Source of the DNA: Planctomycetota bacterium
Lineage (GTDB): Bacteria > Planctomycetota > Phycisphaerae > Sedimentisphaerales > Anaerobacaceae
Reading direction: 5' to 3'
Assembly (NCBI GenBank): GCA_014384025.1
Contig: JACNGQ010000182.1
Coordinates: 1 to 42,145 of the forward strand
DNA: 42,145 nucleotides
The notes under the pieces are model-generated. The model made no database searches and had not been told where the DNA came from. It saw only the letters and a list, made by a program, of their open reading frames with translations. The translations under genes and the position numbers were made by a program. Positions 1 to 11,942 of the stretch are shown piece after piece (position 1 is the first letter of the stretch; every line of letters begins with the position of its first letter).

Positions 1-1801
1 TGTGGTCTTTAATGGGCGAGTGCAGGTAGATAACATAGTAGTACGGCGAAAAAAATCGGATCACCGGACACGCGCTGTATTCGTGGTTCACACCGGTGAA
101 GATCAGACCCGGCATCTTCTCCCACTGCGACAGATCTCCGGACCGGGCGAACTTGAAACAAAACTGCACGGGCTTGTTCGACTCATAAGCCATCAGAAAG
201 CCCTTCTCATCGCGGCATACAGACGCATTGAAAAGGTGCTCGTTTCCTTCCCTCGGAATCGCCGGCTCGCGCTTCCACGTCTTGAGATCGCGGCTCGAGA
301 AGTGATAGAGGCTTTGGAACCAGTCATGGTTGCTCCCTTCGCTGGCGAACACGTGGAGTTCCGGCCCGTTCATAAAAGCGCTGGCGAAGGAGTGACCTTC
401 GCCGAAGCGGCACAATTCATTGCCCGTGTTCAGGTCGATGGCGTAGAGATACATGCTCTTAGTATAGTCGTCGGTGTTGTTCTTGGTGTCATCGCGATAA
501 TTGAGCACATGCAGCGGCCGGCCACCTGTGAAGACGACCGGCGTGTTCTCCATGGCCCTGGGCATAGCGAAGGGCAATTTCGTCAACTTGGGCCGCTTGG
601 AGTTCGCCGGGGATTGAGAGGGAAGTCGTGGTGGGGCGATCTGAAAGAACAGGTCCGTGGGCCACAGCCCCAGCCGCTCGAAGCCTTCGGGCACGTCTTG
701 CTTGAATTGCACGTAAGCTCTCGTTTTACCCCGGGTCGTATAAGTTACTGCTTTCCTCGCCTCTCCAGATGTAAAGACACTGTAACCGGCCAGAATACAG
801 TCCTCCACATCGACATGCAGTCGTCCAGTGGGCGCGTGCCCTTGCGTACAGATGATACCCGTGGACTTCCCGCCCATTTCCGGCTGGGTGAAGTTCAGCA
901 CGATCATGCGGCAGTTGACAAATCTCGCCCGAGCACAGCCGCTGGCGTAGGAAATGGCCACAGCATTGTCAGAATGTACAAGGGTGCAATCTTCGAAAAC
1001 GACGTGGGGATATTTGGGCATCGCCTTCTCCCATCCTCCCACCAGGACGGCCGCAGTATCACCGACCCAGTCGAGGGCGAGAAAGTAGCACCGCCGAAAC
1101 ACGCTTGGCTCATTCTCTCGCACCGTCGGATAGACCACTCCGCCGCCGAAAGCGCGGCCCGTGCCCACACAGTCCTCGACCACAACGGTGAATCCCTCAC
1201 CGCTCTTGTTGGTGAGGTCCCAGAAGAAGCCGGCGTCTCCTCCAGCCGTGTAGAGATGACGCAGGTTCCATCGATCCCAGATGATGCTGGAGAAGGTCTC
1301 CTGGTTGTTACCATGCGGCCAATGTTTGTCAGAGGCGCGAATCGGCCCCCACCAATCCCAGCTCTTGAATCCCTTTTCGGGATCTCCGGAATCGATTACT
1401 GTCCAGCCTTTGGCGCCGGAGCCGTGACTGCCGTCGAAATCGCCGATCAGGTTGTTGTATGCTGCTGTTGCACCTTTGTGGGCCGGCGCTAAATTGGCCT
1501 CGACATAGGTGTCTGGCCGGATAATGACGTTATGGCCGCCCTTGTCATCGGGCACGGCATTAAGTGCCTTCTGAATGGTATGGAAAGCGGTTTTCCAGCT
1601 CCGCCCGTCCGTGTTGTCGCCCAGCTTGGAAACGTAGAGCGTCACTCCGCGTCGAATGTCATTCGGAGCAGCAGATGGTTCCGTCCCCAGTGAGATGCAA
1701 GGCGAAAGGATTGCTGTGAGCAGCGTCAGCAGGAAGATGGTTTTCATGATAGCAAGGGCAAATCCCCAAGGCAGTAATCTGTGAAGTAGTTGCCGCGTCA
1801 T
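1..1801 (-). CDS. Exported beta-helix / propeller-like protein (3' end outside window)
   Basis: The minus frame is open from the ATG at 1801 to the window edge, at least 600 codons, so the C-terminus is missing. The start at 1801 is chosen because GGAGG sits 8 nt upstream. A downstream in-frame ATG at 1747 lacks this site. Residues 1-40 form a long signal peptide. The N-terminal half opens with YVSKLGDNTDG and IQKALNAVP and contains recurring VxxEDCxLxxS-type turns, the pattern of a right-handed parallel beta-helix (DUF1565/pectate-lyase-like). The second half has FxSxDLKTWKR and FARSGDLSQWEK, which resemble blades of a GH43/sialidase-type propeller. It is probably a secreted polysaccharide-active protein. 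The enzyme class and substrate cannot be named from what is visible. A 496-codon open frame on the opposite strand is a GC-driven shadow. Confidence 0.8.
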   Translation of the reverse strand, partial: MTRQLLHRLLPWGFALAIMKTIFLLTLLTAILSPCISLGTEPSAAPNDIRRGVTLYVSKLGDNTDGRSWKTAFHTIQKALNAVPDDKGGHNVIIRPDTYVEANLAPAHKGATAAYNNLIGDFDGSHGSGAKGWTVIDSGDPEKGFKSWDWWGPIRASDKHWPHGNNQETFSSIIWDRWNLRHLYTAGGDAGFFWDLTNKSGEGFTVVVEDCVGTGRAFGGGVVYPTVRENEPSVFRRCYFLALDWVGDTAAVLVGGWEKAMPKYPHVVFEDCTLVHSDNAVAISYASGCARARFVNCRMIVLNFTQPEMGGKSTGIICTQGHAPTGRLHVDVEDCILAGYSVFTSGEARKAVTYTTRGKTRAYVQFKQDVPEGFERLGLWPTDLFFQIAPPRLPSQSPANSKRPKLTKLPFAMPRAMENTPVVFTGGRPLHVLNYRDDTKNNTDDYTKSMYLYAIDLNTGNELCRFGEGHSFASAFMNGPELHVFASEGSNHDWFQSLYHFSSRDLKTWKREPAIPREGNEHLFNASVCRDEKGFLMAYESNKPVQFCFKFARSGDLSQWEKMPGLIFTGVNHEYSACPVIRFFSPYYYVIYLHSPIKDH

Positions 1802-2824: not shown

Positions 2825-3073
2825 ATGCTGACAAAAAATACAAAAATCATCGTTTTTTTCCTGTTTATTCTGCTCGGGGCGGTTTTAATCACGTACGGCG
2901 CGGTTTTTCATTCTACGAACGTTTTACCCCAAAACCAGGACGGTTCTCCGGCGGTTGCCAAATCTGAACCGGCTCTTATCAAAGATGCTTCAGTTGGCGG
3001 CCTAACGAGAGATGAGTCGGGCAAGATTAAGCAAACATACACCGGCCAATCTCCGCAAGCATGCGCTACGTGA
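2825..3073 (+). CDS. Small membrane-anchored protein upstream of Fe-S membrane protein
   Basis: This 82-aa ORF has a single N-terminal hydrophobic segment (about residues 8-28) followed by a polar, probably periplasmic tail with no recognisable motif and a single Cys near the C-terminus. It ends 19 nt before the chosen start of the 4Fe-4S membrane protein, so the two are probably co-transcribed. There is no clear Shine-Dalgarno site. It could be an accessory subunit or anchor for the electron-transfer module that follows. I do not recognise the family. Confidence 0.55.
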   Translation: MLTKNTKIIVFFLFILLGAVLITYGAVFHSTNVLPQNQDGSPAVAKSEPALIKDASVGGLTRDESGKIKQTYTGQSPQACAT

Positions 3074-3092
3074 GGCACTTAAAAAGGGGACC

Positions 3093-3959
3093 ATGGTGGC
3101 CATGGTCGAAAAGACTAAATTAAGCAATTTCGCTTCAAAAATTCTCGGCTGGCGGATGTGGGTGCAATCGGCATTCCTTCTGGTTTGGCTGGACCCATTG
3201 GGTCTGCGTATGCACACTGTCTGCTCGCCTGTTTTTCATTGTTATGCGTGCCCGTTGTCAACTTTCGCCTGTCCTATCGGAATCATCGCCCAGTTCGGCG
3301 CACTGCATATCTTTCCATTTATAGCAGTTGGGTTGTTAATAGCGGTCGGCGTTTTATTTGGGACTCTTATATGCGGCTGGGTTTGTCCCTTTGGTTTTCT
3401 GCAGGATATTGTCGCCAAAATTCCAACACCCAGGTTCGACCTGCCTAAATGGACTGGTAATTTGCGTTATGTAGTTTTAATTGTCACAGTGCTTGCAGTA
3501 CCTTATTTTTTCGGCGAAGGGCATTGGCTTTTTGTCTGTCGGGTCTGTCCGGCCGGAGCGCTTGAAGCGGCGGTGCCAAATATGGTCGGCCAGGCGGTTG
3601 GAGGCGATAAAATTATCTGGCCGAGCGCATTGAAGCTGACTATCCTCGGGCTGTTTTTAATAGCTATTTTCTTTATGAAAAGACCGTGGTGCAGGATATT
3701 GTGTCCGCTTGGTGCGATATTTTCACTTTTCAATCGTGTATCCGCATTCTTCCTGCGATTTAATCCTTATCAGTGTACCGAATGCAAACAGTGCCATAAA
3801 ATGTGCGAGTACGGCATAGAGCCGGAAAAGAGCCCGAATGATTCGCGGTGCGTTCGCTGCCTTGAGTGCATCGGCTGCAAGCCGGGCGCATTGACTCTCG
3901 GCAGTATCTTTGAAAATTCAAAAACAAACACTTCTCTCGATATTGAGAAACGGGAGTAA
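3093..3959 (+). CDS. NapH/NosR-type polytopic 4Fe-4S membrane protein
   Basis: The protein has 288 aa and several transmembrane helices. It carries the cysteine signatures of the NapH/NosR/RdxA 4Fe-4S membrane family: CYACPLSTFACP, CGWVCPFGFLQD, CRVCPAGALEA and CRILCPLGAIFS. A C-terminal ferredoxin-like part follows, with CTECKQCHKMC and CVRCLECIGCKPGAL. Family members pass electrons from quinol or membrane carriers to periplasmic reductases. Here the next gene, 82 nt downstream, encodes an exported hexaheme selenoprotein, which suggests a direct electron-transfer partnership (inference). The start at 3093 follows AAAAAGGGGA and lies after the previous stop. In-frame alternatives are 3012, which overlaps the upstream gene, and 3102. 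Confidence 0.85.
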   Translation: MVAMVEKTKLSNFASKILGWRMWVQSAFLLVWLDPLGLRMHTVCSPVFHCYACPLSTFACPIGIIAQFGALHIFPFIAVGLLIAVGVLFGTLICGWVCPFGFLQDIVAKIPTPRFDLPKWTGNLRYVVLIVTVLAVPYFFGEGHWLFVCRVCPAGALEAAVPNMVGQAVGGDKIIWPSALKLTILGLFLIAIFFMKRPWCRILCPLGAIFSLFNRVSAFFLRFNPYQCTECKQCHKMCEYGIEPEKSPNDSRCVRCLECIGCKPGALTLGSIFENSKTNTSLDIEKRE

Positions 3960-4041: not shown

Positions 4042-5736
4042 ATGAAACAAGTTTGCAGAAAAGCTTTCCGAAACACTCCCTTCTGGTTGACAATCGTATT
4101 TCTACTGGTATCCCTGATAGCAAATATCGGCGAAGGTCAACAAAGCAAAATGCCTCGCGGTTATAATCCCAAGATTAATATTGGAGAATTTCCACCCGAT
4201 TTCGAACTGCCCAGACTGGTGATTGAAACCGATGAAACGGGAAAATCTCAGGGAGTAATCAGCGAAACCGATACAGTGAAATTATCATCCTTCCGGGGTA
4301 AAAAACCGGTCTGCATGATTATGTCGAGCTATACGTGACCCCCGTTTACATCCCGTGCAGCAGACATGGAAAGATTGTACGCGTCGTACAATGAAGATAT
4401 CGAGTTCCTGATTGTTTACATCCGCGAGGCCCACCCTGAAATGTTGAGAGAGGGCAACAAAACGGGCATCGTCGGCAGACCAAAAGATATTGATGAGCGG
4501 ATTATTCTCGCGAGCGAGTGTGTAGCCAGGTACAAATTTACCATACCGATGGTCATAGACGGTATGGACGGCAAGGTCAATGACGATTATAAGGCCTGGC
4601 CTGTCCGGGTTACCGTTACTGATATTGACGGCAAGGTTGCCTTTTACGCCGGGCCCGGGCCTTTTGATTTCAGACTTCCGCCTGTTGAAAGGGTACTGAA
4701 AAAACTTATCGCCAACGGCGGCCGGATGCCGCCACCACCGGTGCCGCAATGGGGACAGACGGTTAACGGTCTGCGCTGCGGGCTAAGTATCGATCCGGAA
4801 AAACTGGTTATGGGTGACGTAGTTGCGGCCAAATTAATATTTGAGAACACGACCGACAAACCAATTGACTTCTATTACAAAGCTGCCGACGCTGCCAAAA
4901 ACATTGAGATTATTAATAGCAGCGGACAGGCTTTGAGCATTAAAGCCGGTGGTGGTAGTCGAATGCGTTCGAGGAGCAGTAATCCGGTTCAGAGGATTGC
5001 CCCCGGAAAAGCTTTTGAAGCCGAAGTCGAAGGTACAGTCGTTGCTCCCGGCGACCAGGCGGTGTTTGCTGTGGGGCAATTCAGCGCTGTGTACAACAAC
5101 GAAGTCAATGACGATACGCTGGCTCAAATCGAGCCGGCTCCCGCACGAGGGGCTTGGAAAGGTAAACTCAGTTCGGGTAAGTTTGCTATCGATTTAGAGC
5201 TGCCTCATCAGGAGGGGTGTATCGATTGTCACGGTGAGTCGGATTATCACCACGTAAAGGATGAAAACTGTGAGTACTGCCATGTAGGAGAAGTTGGTAC
5301 TGATGACTTTGGTGAAAAGGATGAGGTGTGTGTCGATTGCCATCCCCGCGAAGGTGTGTATGGCCGCAGACAAATCCTTGGACCGGAAGGAGAATTTGAT
5401 CTGGCTTCGAAGCACATTTCCGGCGAGATTACAGACAAAAGCTGCCTGTTATGTCATGACAACAGTAAACATCGCAACGGTGTCGTAAGTCTGATTGACC
5501 CGGATTCCGGTGGCGCTGAGCCCTGGACGGGTACTCGTACGGAATTCTGTCTGACCTGTCACGATGGCCAGCCGCCTGACGGCCTGTCTTTTCCTGCGAA
5601 ATCCATGGGCACCGGATTCGACAAAAAAGAATTCCTGGGCTCAGCCCTTTCACGGATTAAGGATGGCTGCAGCTATTGCCATACTCCGCACGGTTCACAA
5701 TATCCGTCACTATTAAAGAATCTGCATAGCCACTGA
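4042..5736 (+). CDS. Deiodinase-like selenoprotein fused to hexaheme cytochrome c (Sec99)
   Basis: One 564-aa protein is read through an in-frame TGA at 4336-4338. Residues 1-34 are a signal peptide. Residues about 50-230 form a thioredoxin-fold, iodothyronine-deiodinase-like domain, with FPPDFELPRL, the active site SSYT-U-PPF and YIREAHP at about 126-132. These match the family's xCTUPPF and YIxEAHP hallmarks. A beta-sandwich region follows. The tail holds six CxxCH haem sites at about residues 393, 410, 430, 468, 503 and 543. The start has AAGGAG upstream. A conventional reading would split it into two unrelated ORFs at the TGA and leave a cytochrome with no export signal. Deiodinase-like Sec domains are thiol or dehalogenation redox enzymes. 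The haem tail suggests it receives electrons from the Fe-S membrane protein encoded just upstream. The substrate is unknown. Confidence 0.9.
4353..4369 (+). promoter_or_regulatory. Candidate bacterial SECIS hairpin after Sec99 TGA
   Basis: CCGTG (4353-4357) pairs with CATGG (4365-4369), including one G-T pair, around a 7-nt loop CAGCAGA. The stem begins 14 nt after the TGA at 4336-4338, the usual spacing for a bacterial SECIS inside the coding region. The stem is short, so the element is plausible rather than certain. Confidence 0.4.
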
Positions 5737-5845
5737 TAAAAATGCGTGGGTGAAGTTGAAGAAGATTACACTTTCTTCGAGCTGTGACGCGAGCGGTGTT
5801 TTCTGAGACCGGATTACTGTCTCCAAGTCTTATCCGGCGTTGTCT

Positions 5846-7243
5846 TTATTGCTCAGAGGAGAGGTTGGTATCAGACTGCGCTGCAGTTGTCGGCATCGAT
5901 TTGAGACGCAAACATGCATAAAATCGTTCTCGGAAAAAGGGACTGTAAAATGCCAAAATCATAAAGGGAAATACAATAACATATAAACAGGCGCCTAAAA
6001 TCAGGCTTACTATGGGGATCATAATCAATACTGAAGAAATGGAAACAGTTATTTTTTGAATAATACACATACTGAAGAAAAGCACAAACATACTCACAAG
6101 ACAGACCACTATAGTCCAGAAGGCAAGATATAGCATAAATCGTAAGCTGCTGTAACGAATTCGGCATCGCCAACCTGCCAGGACAAAGCCAAGCAGAATT
6201 ACCAATGCCGACATAATTGACATTATCAGGGTTTCGAAGGTTTGCTGCGAAAAGTTAAGTCCGAAGTAGGATATTTCGCCTACCAGACAAATGACTGCCA
6301 TTAGGGCAAGAGCCCGAAGAAATGTGAGAAAGTGATTGCGATTTCCAAGCTTATGTGCTATCAAACCCATTACAGTGATACTTATAGATATAGATTGAAA
6401 CAGCATATCATACTGTTGGACAACTGAGGAAGACATGCCTGAGATATTCTTTAAGAGCAGGTATAATAGATTCACAATCACAAGCGGCGCAATGATAAGC
6501 AGCGCCCGGCGATCATGGTTTGACTTGGGTAATACAAACGCAACAATCAATGCCAGCCACAAAAGCACTCCTGGCGCTGAGTAATGCCACATCCAATTAT
6601 AAATGACTGCTGCACTTTGTTTTGTTCCCAGTATTCCGATATCCTGTGAAGCGACAATCCTGAATTTGCCAAAGGTTTTTGGAGGTACTCGCCACGAGTA
6701 CGAGCATGTGCCGCCTCAGCCAAACTCGAACTTGCCTGATGCTATTTCTTTGTCCCCTTTATAAATAGTAAAAGTGGGCGGTTTGCTCCTGTCTGAGCTG
6801 GTATATATTTCACCACCACCACCAAGCAGCTCATAATTCAATATAAGAGCACTTCCCCGTCTTTTAACTTTCACTGTTTGTGTCAGAGGGGCACCGAGTT
6901 TTAACACTGCCGGCCTATCCTCGGCAATGGTTACCCAATCACCAGAAGGTGTGCGATTACTCCGGCAAGAGTATCCGTCTATCAGATGTGTCTCCAGCAG
7001 ATGATATTCTCCCACTGGCAATTTTACGATTTCGTCCGGATGGTCTAAGCTTTGCGTTCGTCCATCTCTTTGCCTCAGAACCAGCCGCTCAATATATTTA
7101 CCCTCGATCTTTAGTTCGCCTTTGGCAGAATCCTGCTTATTGGTCTCCTGCGCCGGGCATATACATACTGCAGTTATCAACAGAAGTGAAATGACTGTAA
7201 TTTGATTGATTCGTCTGAATTTGGGGCTCTGTGCGAATATCAT
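5846..7243 (-). CDS. FG-U-GGTC family selenoprotein with 7-8 TM C-terminal domain (Sec176)
   Basis: Two ORFs (7243-6716 and 6592-5846) lie in one frame with no stop other than the TGA at 6718-6716. Read through, they give 465 aa. Residues 1-32 are a signal peptide. A beta-rich domain with KLPVGEY and YKGDKEIASGKFEFG resembles the C-terminal domain of the three paralogues encoded upstream. Then come Sec176 and GGTCSYSWRVP, about 30 linker residues, and 7-8 transmembrane helices (about 215-445) with no recognised motif. GTACTCG-TGG-CGAGTAC, a perfect 7-bp hairpin, follows the TGA. It is the last gene of the selenoprotein operon, 98 nt after its neighbour, with AAAGG 9 nt before the ATG. Fusion of the redox motif to a polytopic membrane domain suggests electron transfer across or within the membrane. 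Function is unknown. Confidence 0.8.
6685..6701 (-). promoter_or_regulatory. Bacterial SECIS-like hairpin (Sec176 TGA)
   Basis: GTACTCG / CGAGTAC form a perfect 7-bp stem with a TGG loop, starting 14 nt after the TGA at 6718-6716. Position and loop match the other three members of the family. Confidence 0.65.
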
Positions 7244-7341
7244 TTTTTCATACCTTTCTCGCTGCTCATCTATTTAATATTATAGACGCAAAGCGGTCTT
7301 TTGCGTTACAAAAAAACAAAGATTTCTATGCCCCTGTATTT

Positions 7342-9048
7342 TCAATCCTGATGAATCACAATCTGCCGTGTTGCTGTTACTTTTCCGTAAAGCTCCAGCG
7401 TATCGTACTGAACCTGTACGTTGAAAGTCTCTTCGTTTCCGTTTAGTTTAAGGTCGGTTGGCACTCGCCACGAGTACCCGCAGGTGCCGTCTCACCCGAA
7501 GGGCATGGCGCCCTCGGTGACCTTTTCGCCGTTGGTACGTGTGATGAGGACTCGTGGCACAACCTTGTCGTAACCTGTTTTAGGGCCTAAAGCAGGCAAG
7601 GCGATAAGGCAGGCAATCAGGACAACGGCTCCCAATGCTGATATTAAAGGCAGGAAACGATATCGCCGGCGCAGTTTAGGCAACAGGAGCCACAAGGCTC
7701 CGGGCAGGATGAGGATTATTATAGATAGCTTTACGAGCAAGAGAGAATCTGCGTAAGAGGGCTTGGCCTCGAGGCCGCGAATCATAATGTTCAGTTTTGG
7801 GTCAACCAGGACAGCTTTTACGTCCAGTTCATCCCCCGGCTTAAGACGAAGGTTCGCAGCCGGGGATGCGAAAATGACATCAGGTTTATTGGAGAAATTC
7901 AAAACAAACGGCTTATTCTTTCTGATTTTTATGCCATAGACCGCAGGACTCCCACCCCTGTCACGTGGTTTGCCGTCTGAATGGTAATTATCCGAGATAT
8001 TAATATGCAGGGACCCGAATGTTATATTCAGCATAGCAGGCAAATAGTCACCGACGGGAAGACGACAGCTTCGAGCGTCTTTGGGCCAGCCATCTTCCAA
8101 ACCTTTACCGACAACCAGGGCTGCGTCCTTGGAGAGTAAGGAACCTTTCATTTTCTTGTTGAAGACAAGGCGCCATCCAGAACCGATCCTGAATATGCCG
8201 AAGTCTCCATCATAATGCTGCACGAATAGTTTGTCACCCGCCGGTGTAGCTGAAAAGCGATAATATGTCCCCTCAATTTTATGGATCCCCCTGAGCTGAT
8301 CCGAACCCAACCATCTTGAGCGATAATTCTTATCATCTTTCGGCATGAGGTGCAAAGCCGTCGATGGTTGGTCGAACCACCCGTCTAAAAGATAATTATG
8401 TCCCAGGTAAGCTGTGTATTTTTTACCAGCGAACTCGATTTCGCCTTTGTGCACCTGAGTAGTAATGAAGGCCAAAGTTGAGTATCCTTTTTCAGAAATC
8501 GTCAGGCGCGGCATAATCTCCAAAGGGCACAGGCCGTCTGAACCGAAATCAAAATTCACATTAAGATAATCGAAGCAGACTTGCTGCTCAATCCATTCGT
8601 AGTCGAGCTTAGCTCCATCCGGAGGATTCTGCAGAGATTGACATAGTGTATCGTTTGTCAGATCGAGATCGCGGTTCAAGTCAAAATATAGCCGGTCATA
8701 TCCCATACCGGTCCCTGCTGATTAGTCAATCGCGAAATGGTATTGAATTCCGGAATTCATATTGCCGTATTCGCTTGCAAACCAGACAGAGCCGTAGAGC
8801 GGCTTGCCGGATTTGAAGGCGGGGTAGGTTCCAACATCGGCCTGGGGCTGTTCCTCACAGCCGCTAACGTGTCCTCTGACAAATCTACCGACTATCTGTT
8901 CATCAATATCAAAGACGGAGATTTCTTCCAGATTGAATGCAAGCTGCTCGGCTTCGTTTTTTTTGCCAAATACAGTGACGACCAAAACGCATAAGATTAT
9001 AAGGCCTGCGGTGGTTAAGAACTTCCAACATTCTGCCTTTGTTCTCAT
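7342..9048 (-). pseudogene. FG-U-DGTC family selenoprotein interrupted by an in-frame TAA
   Basis: The frame runs from the ATG at 9048 (AAGGA 8 nt upstream) to the TGA at 7344-7342, 568 positions. It is broken by TAA at 8724-8722 (codon 109) and contains a TGA read as Sec at 7494-7492 (codon 519). The neighbouring paralogue reads IDESAGPGKGYD where this gene has ID-stop-SAGTGMGYD. GAA to TAA is one substitution, and everything downstream stays intact and homologous. Features are an N-terminal hydrophobic segment, a YDRLYFDLNRDLDL motif (Ca-binding-like), two TM segments (about residues 435-490), then EGAMPFG-U-DGTCGYSWRVP and a conserved 36-aa tail. It could be a recent nonsense allele, a sequencing error, or a gene reinitiating at 8706. 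Without recoding it appears as two or three separate hypothetical ORFs. Confidence 0.7.
7460..7478 (-). promoter_or_regulatory. Bacterial SECIS-like hairpin (TGA at 7494-7492)
   Basis: GGTACTCG-TGG-CGAGTGCC forms an 8-bp stem with one T-G pair. It begins 14 nt after the TGA and has a 3-nt TGG loop. The same structure recurs after the TGA in each paralogue. Confidence 0.7.
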
Positions 9049-9082
9049 ATTCAGTTCCTTATGCAAAGAATATCTAATCAAG

Positions 9083-10669
9083 TTAATCCTTATAAATCAC
9101 GATCTGCCGTGATGCGGTTACTTTGCCGTAAAGCTCAAGTGTATCGTATTGAACCTGAACGTTGAAAGTCTCTTCGTTTCCGTTGAGTTTAAGGTCGGTT
9201 GGCACTCGCCACGAGTACCCGCATGTGCCGTCTCAGCCGAAGGGCATTACACCTTCGGCGACTTTTTCTCCGTCGGCCCGTGTAATGATTACTTTTGGGT
9301 CAAGCGAGGTAAGTTTTTGATTTCGTCTTTTTTTGCCATCGGAGTAATACGTGTCCATCATTTTGCTGAGATGTCGAATCATGATGTCGAGTACTGGATC
9401 TATCAGGACGGCCATTACCTTGACCTCTTCGCCGTCTTTGAATCGTTGGGTTCTTGTCGGCTCAATAAAGAGAACTTCCGGTTCATTCGAGAAATCCAGG
9501 ACAAAAGGGCGGTCTTTTCTAATTTTGATGCCGTAAACCCACTTTTCAAATGCTAATTTTGGGCGGATCTTTGCCATTCGTTGACCATCACTATGGTAAT
9601 TCTTTGAGATGCCGATTGACAGAGGCCCATATTGAATCGTCGTAGATGACAGCGTGTAATCGCCTGTGGGCAAACGACAGGAACGAGCCAACTTCATCGC
9701 TCCGGCTTCAGTAATATCACTGCCGATTGCCAGTCCGTGGCGGTCGGAGGAAAACGCCGATCCCTTTATTCCCAGATTTTTAAAGTCGCGGCTGCCCGCT
9801 CCGAGCTCAAGTGTGCCGAAATCACCTTCATACTTAATTGCAGTGACTTTGTCGCCATGGACGGTAGCCGAGAATTGATACCAGGAGCTGCCAATCCTGT
9901 GCGTCGCGATAAGCGATCCTGCCCATTCCCATGTGGCCGGAGTCTCTGGATCATTCTTGTTGACCAGAAAGAAAGAACACAAAGGATCATTGAGCTTGTC
10001 CCGTACTGAGTCATAGCCAAGGTAAACGTCAAATTTGTTGCCGGCCAGCTTAAAACGTCCCCTGCGTACTGTTGTCGGTACTAATTTGAGCCGCGGGCTG
10101 CCATTGTCAAACCACAATCGCGGCATGACTTCAATGGAATGGTTGCTGTTGTTGTCGTTATCAAATTCGAGGATAAAAGTTGAAAAACACGTTTGTTGTT
10201 TCATGTATTCCTTTTTCAATACCGCGCCTTTCGGTGGTGATTTCTGAACGGTCAGCGGCTTGTCATTGCCCAGATCCAGATCATTGTTCAGGTCCACAAA
10301 GAAGGTGTCATAACCTTTACCCGGACCGGCCGATTCGTCAATCACCCAGTACAGAGTCTTGGAAACGTTCAGCAAATCACTATACACCGGCAGCTCGCCG
10401 TACAAGGGTTTATCGGTGTGCAAATCGGGATATTGTATCACCTCCTTGAAAGGTTCATCTTTGGGCCAGGCATATATCCCTCCGGTAAAGTCCATTCGGT
10501 TTCGCGATGGCGCCATGAACGCGGAAATTTCCTTCATATTGATTACGAATTGATCGGCTTGTTCGTCAATCTTTTTCCTGCAGCCGGATGCAATTAGCAT
10601 CAATGAAAGGCATAATATGACAAGGGTGCCGGGAATTAAGAATCTCAAGAAAAACGATTTTTTCCGCAT
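9083..10669 (-). CDS. FG-U-DGTC family lipoprotein selenoprotein, full-length copy (Sec479)
   Basis: The protein has 528 aa when the TGA at 9235-9233 is read as Sec479; read conventionally it stops at 478 aa in ...EGVMPFG. The N-terminus is a lipoprotein signal with lipobox LIASGC. Then come a long periplasmic region with VDLNNDLDLGND (Ca-binding-like), a beta-rich middle, RLPTGDYTLS, KIRKDRPFVLDF and VIITRADGEKVAEGVMPFG, then U-DGTCGYSWRVP and the tail ending in IVIYKD. AAGGAG lies 6 nt before the ATG. It starts 34 nt after the previous paralogue and ends 34 nt before the next, so this is one operon. The 49-codon tail differs from that of the next copy by 9 synonymous and 3 non-synonymous codons, so it is translated. 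No known family recognised; UxxxC could form a selenenylsulfide. Confidence 0.85.
9201..9219 (-). promoter_or_regulatory. Bacterial SECIS-like hairpin (TGA at 9235-9233)
   Basis: An 8-bp stem GGTACTCG / CGAGTGCC with TGG loop lies 14 nt after the TGA, identical to the copy at 7460-7478. Confidence 0.7.
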
Positions 10670-10703
10670 ATATAGCTCCTTCCGCTAAAAAGCTCGAATC
10701 AGG

Positions 10704-11942
10704 TTAATCTTTATAAATCACAATTTGCCGTGATGCGGTTACTTTGCCGTAAAGCTCCAGCGTATCGTATTGAACCTGAACGTTGAAGGTTTCTTTGCTG
10801 CCGTTTAGTTTAAGGTTGTTTGGTACCCGCCACGAGTACCCGCATGTACCGCCTCAGCCAAAAGGCATGACGCCCTCGGCGACCTTTTGGCCATTGGCAC
10901 GAGTAATGACCACATTAGGGTCGAGTGATAGATTTCGTTCGTAGGTGTGTTTTTCGCCGTCAGGACTTACGTATTCTTGTTTTTGCTTTTTCGTAGTATC
11001 GTAGAGACGGCGAATCATAATATCCATTTTTGGGTCAACCAGAACGGCTTCAAATTTTAATTCATGACCCAATCTGAGACGTTGGTCATTATCTGGCTTG
11101 GCGATCAACACCTGGGGTTTGGCAGAAAAGTCAAGAACGTATGGCTGGTTTTGGCGGATTTTAATACCATGAAAGGATTTGTGGCTTCGATAAACTTGAT
11201 TTTGGCTATTTAAATGATAGTAGTTGTCCGAAATAGCTACCTGAACCTTCCCGATTGTCACTTGTAGATAGACAGGGGTGTAATCGCCAACAGGTAATTG
11301 ACACGATCTCACCGGTGCCGGCCAGCCTTCATCCAGTTCTCCGCCGACAGCTATGGAGAAGGCATCTCTGGAGCGCAGCGAACCCTGCATTCCTATTTCC
11401 TGGATATTACGTCCACCGGCGAGCACCTCGAAAATTCCAAACTCACCTTCATAATGACGAACGAGTAATTTGTCGCCATTTGGTGTTATATTAAAAGAAT
11501 AATATTTCTCCCCTATCAAGTGCATAGATTTCAACTGTTCAGCACCAATCCAGCGGGGATAATTCTGTGGGTTGTTTTTTGGTATCAGACAAAAATCTGT
11601 CCCGCGATAAGGAGCCAGGAAAACATCATAATCGATTCCGTCAATTTTTATTTGGCTTCTGCGTACCGTTCCCGAGCGACTTAGAAGACGCGGCTGTGAC
11701 GGGCCTGAGAAGTCCCCATCGGATACGGAGACTTGCTCAAGTTCAAAGGTCATTCCATCCAACGGCTCTTCTCTGACGACCTCTTTAGTCTGTTTCTTAC
11801 TGGCAGCCACTTCGACCCGTTTTTTGCTACTGATCTCCCGTTTTTTTTCCTTGCAGCCGGATGCAATCAGCATTAATGAAAGACATAACATTACAAGAGT
11901 GCCGGGAATTAAGAATCTCAAGAAAAACGGTTTTTTCCGCAT
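10704..11942 (-). CDS. FG-U-GGTC family lipoprotein selenoprotein, shorter copy (Sec363)
   Basis: The protein has 412 aa with Sec363 at the TGA 10856-10854. It has the same lipoprotein signal as the next copy (LIASGC lipobox) and an almost identical 5' leader with AAGGAGC before the ATG. It then carries a Lys-rich linker (residues 31-60). It lacks roughly 110 residues found in the next copy, including the DLNNDLDL motif. It keeps the later domain: QLPVGDYTP, KIRQNQPYVLDF, and VVITRANGQKVAEGVMPFG before U-GGTCGYSWRVP and a 36-aa tail ending in IVIYKD. It is first in the operon, behind a probable promoter at 12015-12041. Tandem duplication followed by internal deletion explains its layout. Confidence 0.85.
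10822..10840 (-). promoter_or_regulatory. Bacterial SECIS-like hairpin (TGA at 10856-10854)
   Basis: GGTACTCG-TGG-CGGGTACC forms an 8-bp stem 14 nt after the TGA. Relative to the other copies the 3' arm has two changes, A to G opposite T and G to A opposite T. Both keep pairing by exchanging T-A and T-G pairs, so the stem is conserved although its sequence changed. Confidence 0.7.

Follow-up and report, generated by a model that had tools for sequence, protein, structure and literature searches.

A candidate new family of bacterial selenoproteins encoded by four neighbouring genes of a Planctomycetota genome

Do four genes that appear to stop at TGA really end there? The question is raised by a 42,145-nucleotide stretch of a Planctomycetota genome (contig JACNGQ010000182.1 of assembly GCA_014384025.1; this whole stretch is called the window here), in which four minus-strand genes lie between positions 5846 and 11942. 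In all four, the residues FG directly precede an in-frame TGA, and the same frame continues behind it with (D/G)GTC(G/S)YSWRVP. An earlier sequence-only reading had interpreted these codons as selenocysteine (Sec) codons of a candidate new selenoprotein family. The interrupted open reading frames (ORFs) and their continuations were found as it had described, with the TGA codons at 10854-10856, 9233-9235, 7492-7494 and 6716-6718. Copy 1 (10704-11942) encodes a lipoprotein-like product of 412 amino acids with Sec as residue 363 and copy 2 (9083-10669) one of 528 amino acids with Sec as residue 479, both ending at TAA. Copy 3 (7342-9048, its frame running from about 9048) ends at a second TGA, 7342-7344, which is a genuine stop unlike the Sec TGA. 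Copy 4 (5846-7243) encodes 465 amino acids comprising a predicted signal peptide, beta domains and Sec as residue 176. The part following the Sec codon measures 49 codons in copies 1 to 3 and 289 codons with approximately 7-8 predicted transmembrane helices in copy 4, again as claimed.

The description of the locus as an operon of four consecutive paralogous ORFs has to be modified in three respects. The genes share a strand and lie close to each other, and operon status is inferred from this spacing only. All four share the Sec domain, the only part in which copy 4 is homologous to copies 1-3. Copy 3 possesses the TGA and the tail, but further upstream its frame is broken by a TAA at 8722-8724, a site at which paralogues and homologues have GAA. 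Since its counterpart in a related genome (G003, L021) is free of this codon, the TAA is a recent nonsense allele or an assembly error. None of the four copies gave a match above the curated cut-off in Pfam-A or NCBIfam 20.0. The membrane tail of copy 4 had no identifiable family in Pfam, NCBIfam or profile searches of PDB, which proves nothing about its fold.

We conclude that the four genes very probably belong to a new family of bacterial selenoproteins; judged from sequence, we put the probability of this statement at about 0.95, a figure which applies to the family and not to its function. The computations show that translation continues at each UGA under the direction of a selenocysteine insertion sequence (SECIS) hairpin, and it follows by inference that the residue inserted within FG-U-x-G-T-C is Sec. 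The hairpins are located at 10822-10840, 9201-9219, 7460-7478 and 6684-6702 (copies 1 to 4, minus strand). Each has a stem of 8 bp (7 bp in copy 4) and a loop formed by the Trp codon UGG, at a spacing of 21 nt from the UGA; the energies of 60-nt folds range from -13.3 to -15.2 kcal/mol. The published criteria for bacterial SECIS elements (bSECIS) are a loop of 3-9 nt, a stem of 4-16 bp, a G in loop positions 1-2, a spacing of 16-37 nt and a minimum free energy of at most -7.5 (PMC13188914), and the hairpins of the window conform to them in loop size, stem, loop G, spacing and energy. The SECIS model R1 matched only the four family copies in the window and not the UGA (4336) of a neighbouring deiodinase-like gene.

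The coordinated amino-acid changes in the two arms of the stem are the strongest evidence for a SECIS that the sequences offer. The pairing codons are mostly Tyr/Val (TAC with GTA or GTG, 135 cases), which are replaced by Leu/Glu (CTC/GAG, 9), Ala/Gly (GCC/GGC, 4), Phe/Glu (TTC/GAA), Tyr/Ile (TAT/ATA) or Cys/Ala (TGC/GCA) in other members. Similarly, a Ser to Thr change (ACG) is accompanied by CGT in 14/14 cases and a Ser to Ala change (GCG) by CGC in 2/2, and Pro has become Ala where the pairing G turned into C (L037, L044). In the 136 cases with Tyr, its codon is TAC every time, although TAT accounts for 57% of Tyr codons in the window. These changes are hard to rationalise by the chemistry of the paired residues but are exact exchanges of base pairs; the conserved YSWRVP is thus dictated at least partly by the RNA. 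All six inner pairs can form in 95.7% of 117 distinct sequences, as opposed to 4.8% when synonymous codons are drawn from the usage of each gene. The covariation score was 0.440 against 0.127 (standard deviation 0.028) for shuffled and at most 0.101 for slid alignments. Resampling is the less selected of the two tests, since the 20 sequences of the covariation set were picked for diversity.

Homologues read on past the TGA. In a DNA scan of GTDB 220 (one genome per species, any TGN accepted at the Sec site, at least 116 stretches), TGA occupied the site in 123/125 of the matches listed. The other two, TGT in Massilia (L100) and TGG in Bacterium HR39 (L125), were rejected as non-Sec members because they are chance matches in which the family context is absent. 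The same applies to pattern matches in G124 and G053 (TGG/TGC) and G023:C22 (TGT). A sample of 61 related genomes was searched by DNA pattern, by protein and by a profile of the Sec domain. Many protein matches span the TGA, the long ones with 29-59% identity, and the profile found 97 domains in 22 genomes, 95 of them with exactly one TGA. Up to 11 copies occur per genome. The family is distributed over Planctomycetota, Verrucomicrobiota, Lentisphaerota, Sumerlaeota/BRC1 and Hydrogenedentota, with one occurrence in Riflebacteria. One subfamily has SLSWREP (or SLTWREP/TLSWREP) after Sec together with the CTC/GAG pair (L063, L068, L072, L080, L099, L120 and L136), and its genes lie just 3' of members with a transmembrane tail.

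Were the TGA a true stop, the tail would be the relic of a pseudogene or an RNA element that is not translated, for example an attenuator. Automatic annotation would close the ORFs at this codon, and the conserved hairpin does come after it. However, this explanation is already contradicted and we regard it as extremely improbable. The ratio of non-synonymous to synonymous differences per site (pN/pS) in the tails is below 1 in all 111 comparable pairs, and this purifying selection reaches tens of codons past the hairpin. The tails cluster at lengths of 40-42, 48-50 and approximately 270-320 residues and end at TAA, TAG or TGA. In addition, two homologues have lost the TGA and hold the tail in one ORF: in L186 (G001:C22:6484-6774) it has changed to AGA (Arg) and the SECIS is damaged, and in L025 (G032:C238) a deletion has taken both Sec and the Cys behind it. 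A predicted domain that is completed by the tail (see below) and the co-occurrence of the family with Sec machinery also speak against a true stop. The comparison of the tails of copies 2 and 3, which had been cited as a sign of translation, gave exactly the same 9 synonymous and 3 non-synonymous changes when recounted. The synonymous sites of these two tails (7342-7494 and 9083-9235) are closer (pS 0.27) than those of the 20 codons before the UGA (0.63), and gene conversion of the tail between the two copies is therefore suggested.

The machinery for Sec insertion is encoded in the source genome in full (selA, selB, selC and selD). The selC gene for tRNA-Sec, with a UCA anticodon (76 bits), lies on the plus strand of the window at 2628-2722, i.e. 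at the distance of 3-9 kb from the family genes which had been noticed at the outset. On contig C288, SelB (911-2791, E 3.5e-111) adjoins SelA (TIGR00474, E 3.3e-161), and SelD is found on the same contig (E 1.2e-109). According to the profile search, the genome contains eight family copies, four in the window, two on C288 and two on C441. Among the 61 relatives, the pattern scan placed the family in 15/15 genomes with tRNA-Sec (14 by DNA pattern, G002 by protein) and in 5/46 without it (Fisher p=2e-10); two further carriers, G007 and G016, came to light in the subsequent profile search. A family copy was located within 20 kb of selC in 13/18 genomes, 0.7 being expected. In the sample of the wider phylum, 275/392 genomes passed the tRNA-Sec cut-off and only five contained the strict motif, so that this comparison is consistent with the association but uninformative, in contrast to that among relatives. 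As it is rare among Sec-encoding genomes of the phylum, the family is lineage-restricted rather than a universal selenoprotein.

These data also bear on the idea that a residue other than Sec is inserted at the UGA, whether as Trp, by near-cognate read-through or under a reassigned code. Read-through as such is what the sequences display, and the identity of the residue is a step beyond it. But TGA terminates 8 of the 21 ORFs of the window that have at least 240 amino acids, and it does not occur inside long ORFs; the hairpin fits the SECIS model, the genes lie beside selA, selB, selC and selD, and genomes without Sec machinery are mostly without the family. We therefore consider insertion of another residue very improbable, if marginally less so than a true stop.

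Several observations weigh against a Sec family. tRNA-Sec was not found in seven genomes with the family (G003, G004, G007, G016, G021, G022 and G029), and SelB is absent, or present only in an EF-Tu-like or partial form, in G004, G016 and G022. SelB at E < 1e-60 was detected in 23/30, and thus not all, of the GTDB-scan genomes with genuine family matches; Massilia, the genome with the chance match, served as a control and gave none at this threshold. SelB passed the cut-off in three of the five family genomes that lacked tRNA-Sec in the pattern scan (G003, G021 and G029), and tRNA-Sec was thus probably missed there in incomplete metagenome-assembled genomes (MAGs). Practically all family records come from MAGs and none from a cultured member. 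When 45-nt segments of copies 2 and 4 were folded, an alternative pairing was slightly more stable than the hairpin. Cys stands four residues after Sec at 156 of the 158 Sec sites that were collected with no such requirement, but two members have Gly instead (L047, minus strand, about 5499, and L094, plus strand, about 4970; FEPG-U-SSTG / SGTG), so a Sec-Cys bridge is not universal. The fold matches of the Sec domain in PDB (best Foldseek E 1.9e-3; Z about 8) are weak to middling and inform on the fold class only. Finally, the absence of homologues with Cys in place of Sec had been named at the outset as a refutation of the proposal; none was found among the GTDB pattern matches listed or in the profile search of the 61 genomes, which is unusual for selenoproteins. 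The missing Cys form does not refute the family, since covariation, the association with the machinery and the two variants that lost the TGA are independent evidence. Rather, the family would be obligately Sec-containing in everything sampled, and for this reason too it would have escaped methods that depend on Cys homologues.

What the tail adds to the protein was examined with AlphaFold2 run on family alignments. The models are confident (pLDDT, the predicted local distance difference test score, 88.8 for copy 2 and 86.2 for copy 4). In the model of copy 2, Sec479 lies in a loop between strands 469-474 and 485-488, and the tail supplies the last three strands (485-488, 499-509 and 516-526), so that a stop at the UGA would be predicted to leave an incomplete beta-sandwich. 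The best matches of its Sec domain (394-528) are macroglobulin (MG) domains, namely those of complement and of alpha-2-macroglobulin from bacteria and humans, with Z up to about 8 and a root-mean-square deviation (rmsd) of 2.1-2.8; sequence-profile searches of PDB with the family gave no clear match. At the level of fold class, the Sec domain thus appears to be a macroglobulin/immunoglobulin (Ig)-like beta-sandwich. In the model of copy 4, every membrane-spanning part comes after the UGA, and read-through would provide the membrane domain as well. This arrangement, together with the strands that a truncated domain would lose, could be taken to mean that the UGA of a genuine selenoprotein gene acts as a selenium-dependent switch, a stop yielding a short soluble or misfolded product and Sec insertion the complete protein, membrane-embedded in copy 4. 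Nothing points to a stable or functional truncated form, however, and incomplete insertion is common to selenoproteins generally, and we find such a switch improbable.

As to function, we tentatively propose, at slightly less than even odds for the proposal as a whole, that the proteins are exported and anchored via a lipoprotein modification, an N-terminal helix or the multi-helix tail, that Sec and the Cys four residues on (UxxxC) form a reversible selenenylsulfide, and that the domain acts as a redox carrier or reductase of the cell envelope. More speculatively, electrons might come from a NapH/MauN-like membrane ferredoxin (Fer4_5), which is encoded in the window at 3012-3959 on the plus strand. 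Counting the window, 14 loci have such a gene in the vicinity of the family, and in many of them the two genes abut or overlap at their ends. The main functional rival, which we hold to be unlikely but well ahead of a switch, is a selenoprotein in which Sec, with Cys, serves as an envelope ligand or scavenger of metals or metalloids and not as a redox pair. Several Sec families of non-thioredoxin fold have been proposed to handle metals or metalloids (PMC13188914), the Sec domain is not a redox-enzyme fold, and ArsM/DVU_1556-like methyltransferases and double-cubane proteins recur nearby; on the other hand, the motif conserves only Sec and one Cys, and the ferredoxin and thioredoxin-like proteins that recur in the neighbourhood speak for the redox role.

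Other genes accompany the family. Next to the ferredoxin gene, the plus-strand gene at 4042-5739 encodes a deiodinase-like selenoprotein (SYT-U-PPF, UGA at 4336-4338), which is not a family member. Selenoproteins of this kind are already known, but its fusion with a C-terminal multihaem CXXCH domain is unusual. The locus on C288 (L017, G000:C288, 875-14000) comprises selB-selA, two family genes, a DUF3034 outer-membrane-like protein, a DVU_1556-like methyltransferase, HGD-D/double-cubane-type proteins, a BadF-type activase and selD. In other genomes, too, family genes have HGD-D (11 loci) and the DVU_1556-like methyltransferase (8 loci) in their surroundings. In a Verrucomicrobia MAG (L054, 362-2065, plus strand), a SelD with a C-terminal AhpD/carboxymuconolactone-decarboxylase-like domain is encoded beside a family gene.

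In comparison with known systems, the family shares with bacterial selenoproteins carrying a bSECIS the in-frame UGA, a hairpin 16-37 nt downstream, a G within loop positions 1-2 and the genomic Sec machinery. It differs from them in that no Cys homologues were found, in its predicted Ig/macroglobulin-like domain instead of a thioredoxin-like or metalloenzyme fold, in its UxxxC spacing and in its multiplication to as many as 11 copies per genome. Thioredoxin-like selenoproteins have UxxC/CxxU motifs, whereas the family has UxxxC and a predicted all-beta sandwich matching MG/Ig domains. The neighbouring deiodinase-like selenoprotein (PF00837) is of thioredoxin-like fold, has the motif SYTUPPF and is unrelated in sequence. 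The recurrent NapH/MauN neighbour resembles ferredoxin-type membrane proteins of that name (E 2.5e-16, below the curated cut-off) and is not part of the family. The predicted fold of the Sec domain is most like the MG2-type domains of alpha-2-macroglobulin and complement (some 100 residues aligned with Z approximately 7-8 and rmsd 2.1-2.8), alpha-2-macroglobulins of E. coli and Salmonella being among the top matches. The identity is 10-20%, those domains have neither Sec nor a known conserved Cys in this loop, and the family is without the protease-trap architecture.

Among the 119 prokaryotic selenoprotein families listed in May 2026 (PMC13188914, Table 1), there is no FG-U-xGTC entry. Only the string GUxG overlaps, which is the listed motif of Hypothetical protein DG (NF049953, ribbon_DG_selen), found by deep-Sep in Desulfosediminicola. 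Identity with NF049953 was rejected: the best match reached 21.5 bits against a cut-off of 130, and of the sub-threshold matches in five family genomes those in G000 lay off the family loci. According to its authors, Hypothetical protein DG has Cys homologues, and deep-Sep may miss selenoproteins without them (PMC12013277). No paper with the strings YSWRVP or FGUDGTC was found in a search that left preprints and most subscription journals outside. The family is previously undescribed, and its unusual points are obligate Sec, the predicted MG/Ig-like fold, gene multiplication and a peptide written by RNA. In the broadest picture, which we rate at just under an even chance, it would be a Sec-only superfamily of PVC (Planctomycetota-Verrucomicrobiota-Chlamydiota), Sumerlaeota and Hydrogenedentota with an Ig/macroglobulin-like envelope domain, present in up to 11 copies per genome beside sel genes and forming the core of a Sec-dependent envelope electron transfer, its peptide being partly written by RNA pairing such that two positions are encoded by mutually reverse-complementary codons.

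The family would be a widespread one of the very sort that standard discovery, with its reliance on Cys homologues, is by design bound to overlook. It suggests that in uncultured Planctomycetota and neighbouring phyla the selenoproteome is under-annotated, with genes cut off at UGA. It is also an exceptionally clear example of paired amino-acid changes forced by an RNA signal within the coding sequence, so that high protein conservation beside a Sec codon cannot simply be taken for protein function. The Sec would, moreover, be placed in a fold that does not normally serve selenium chemistry, which makes the function testable.

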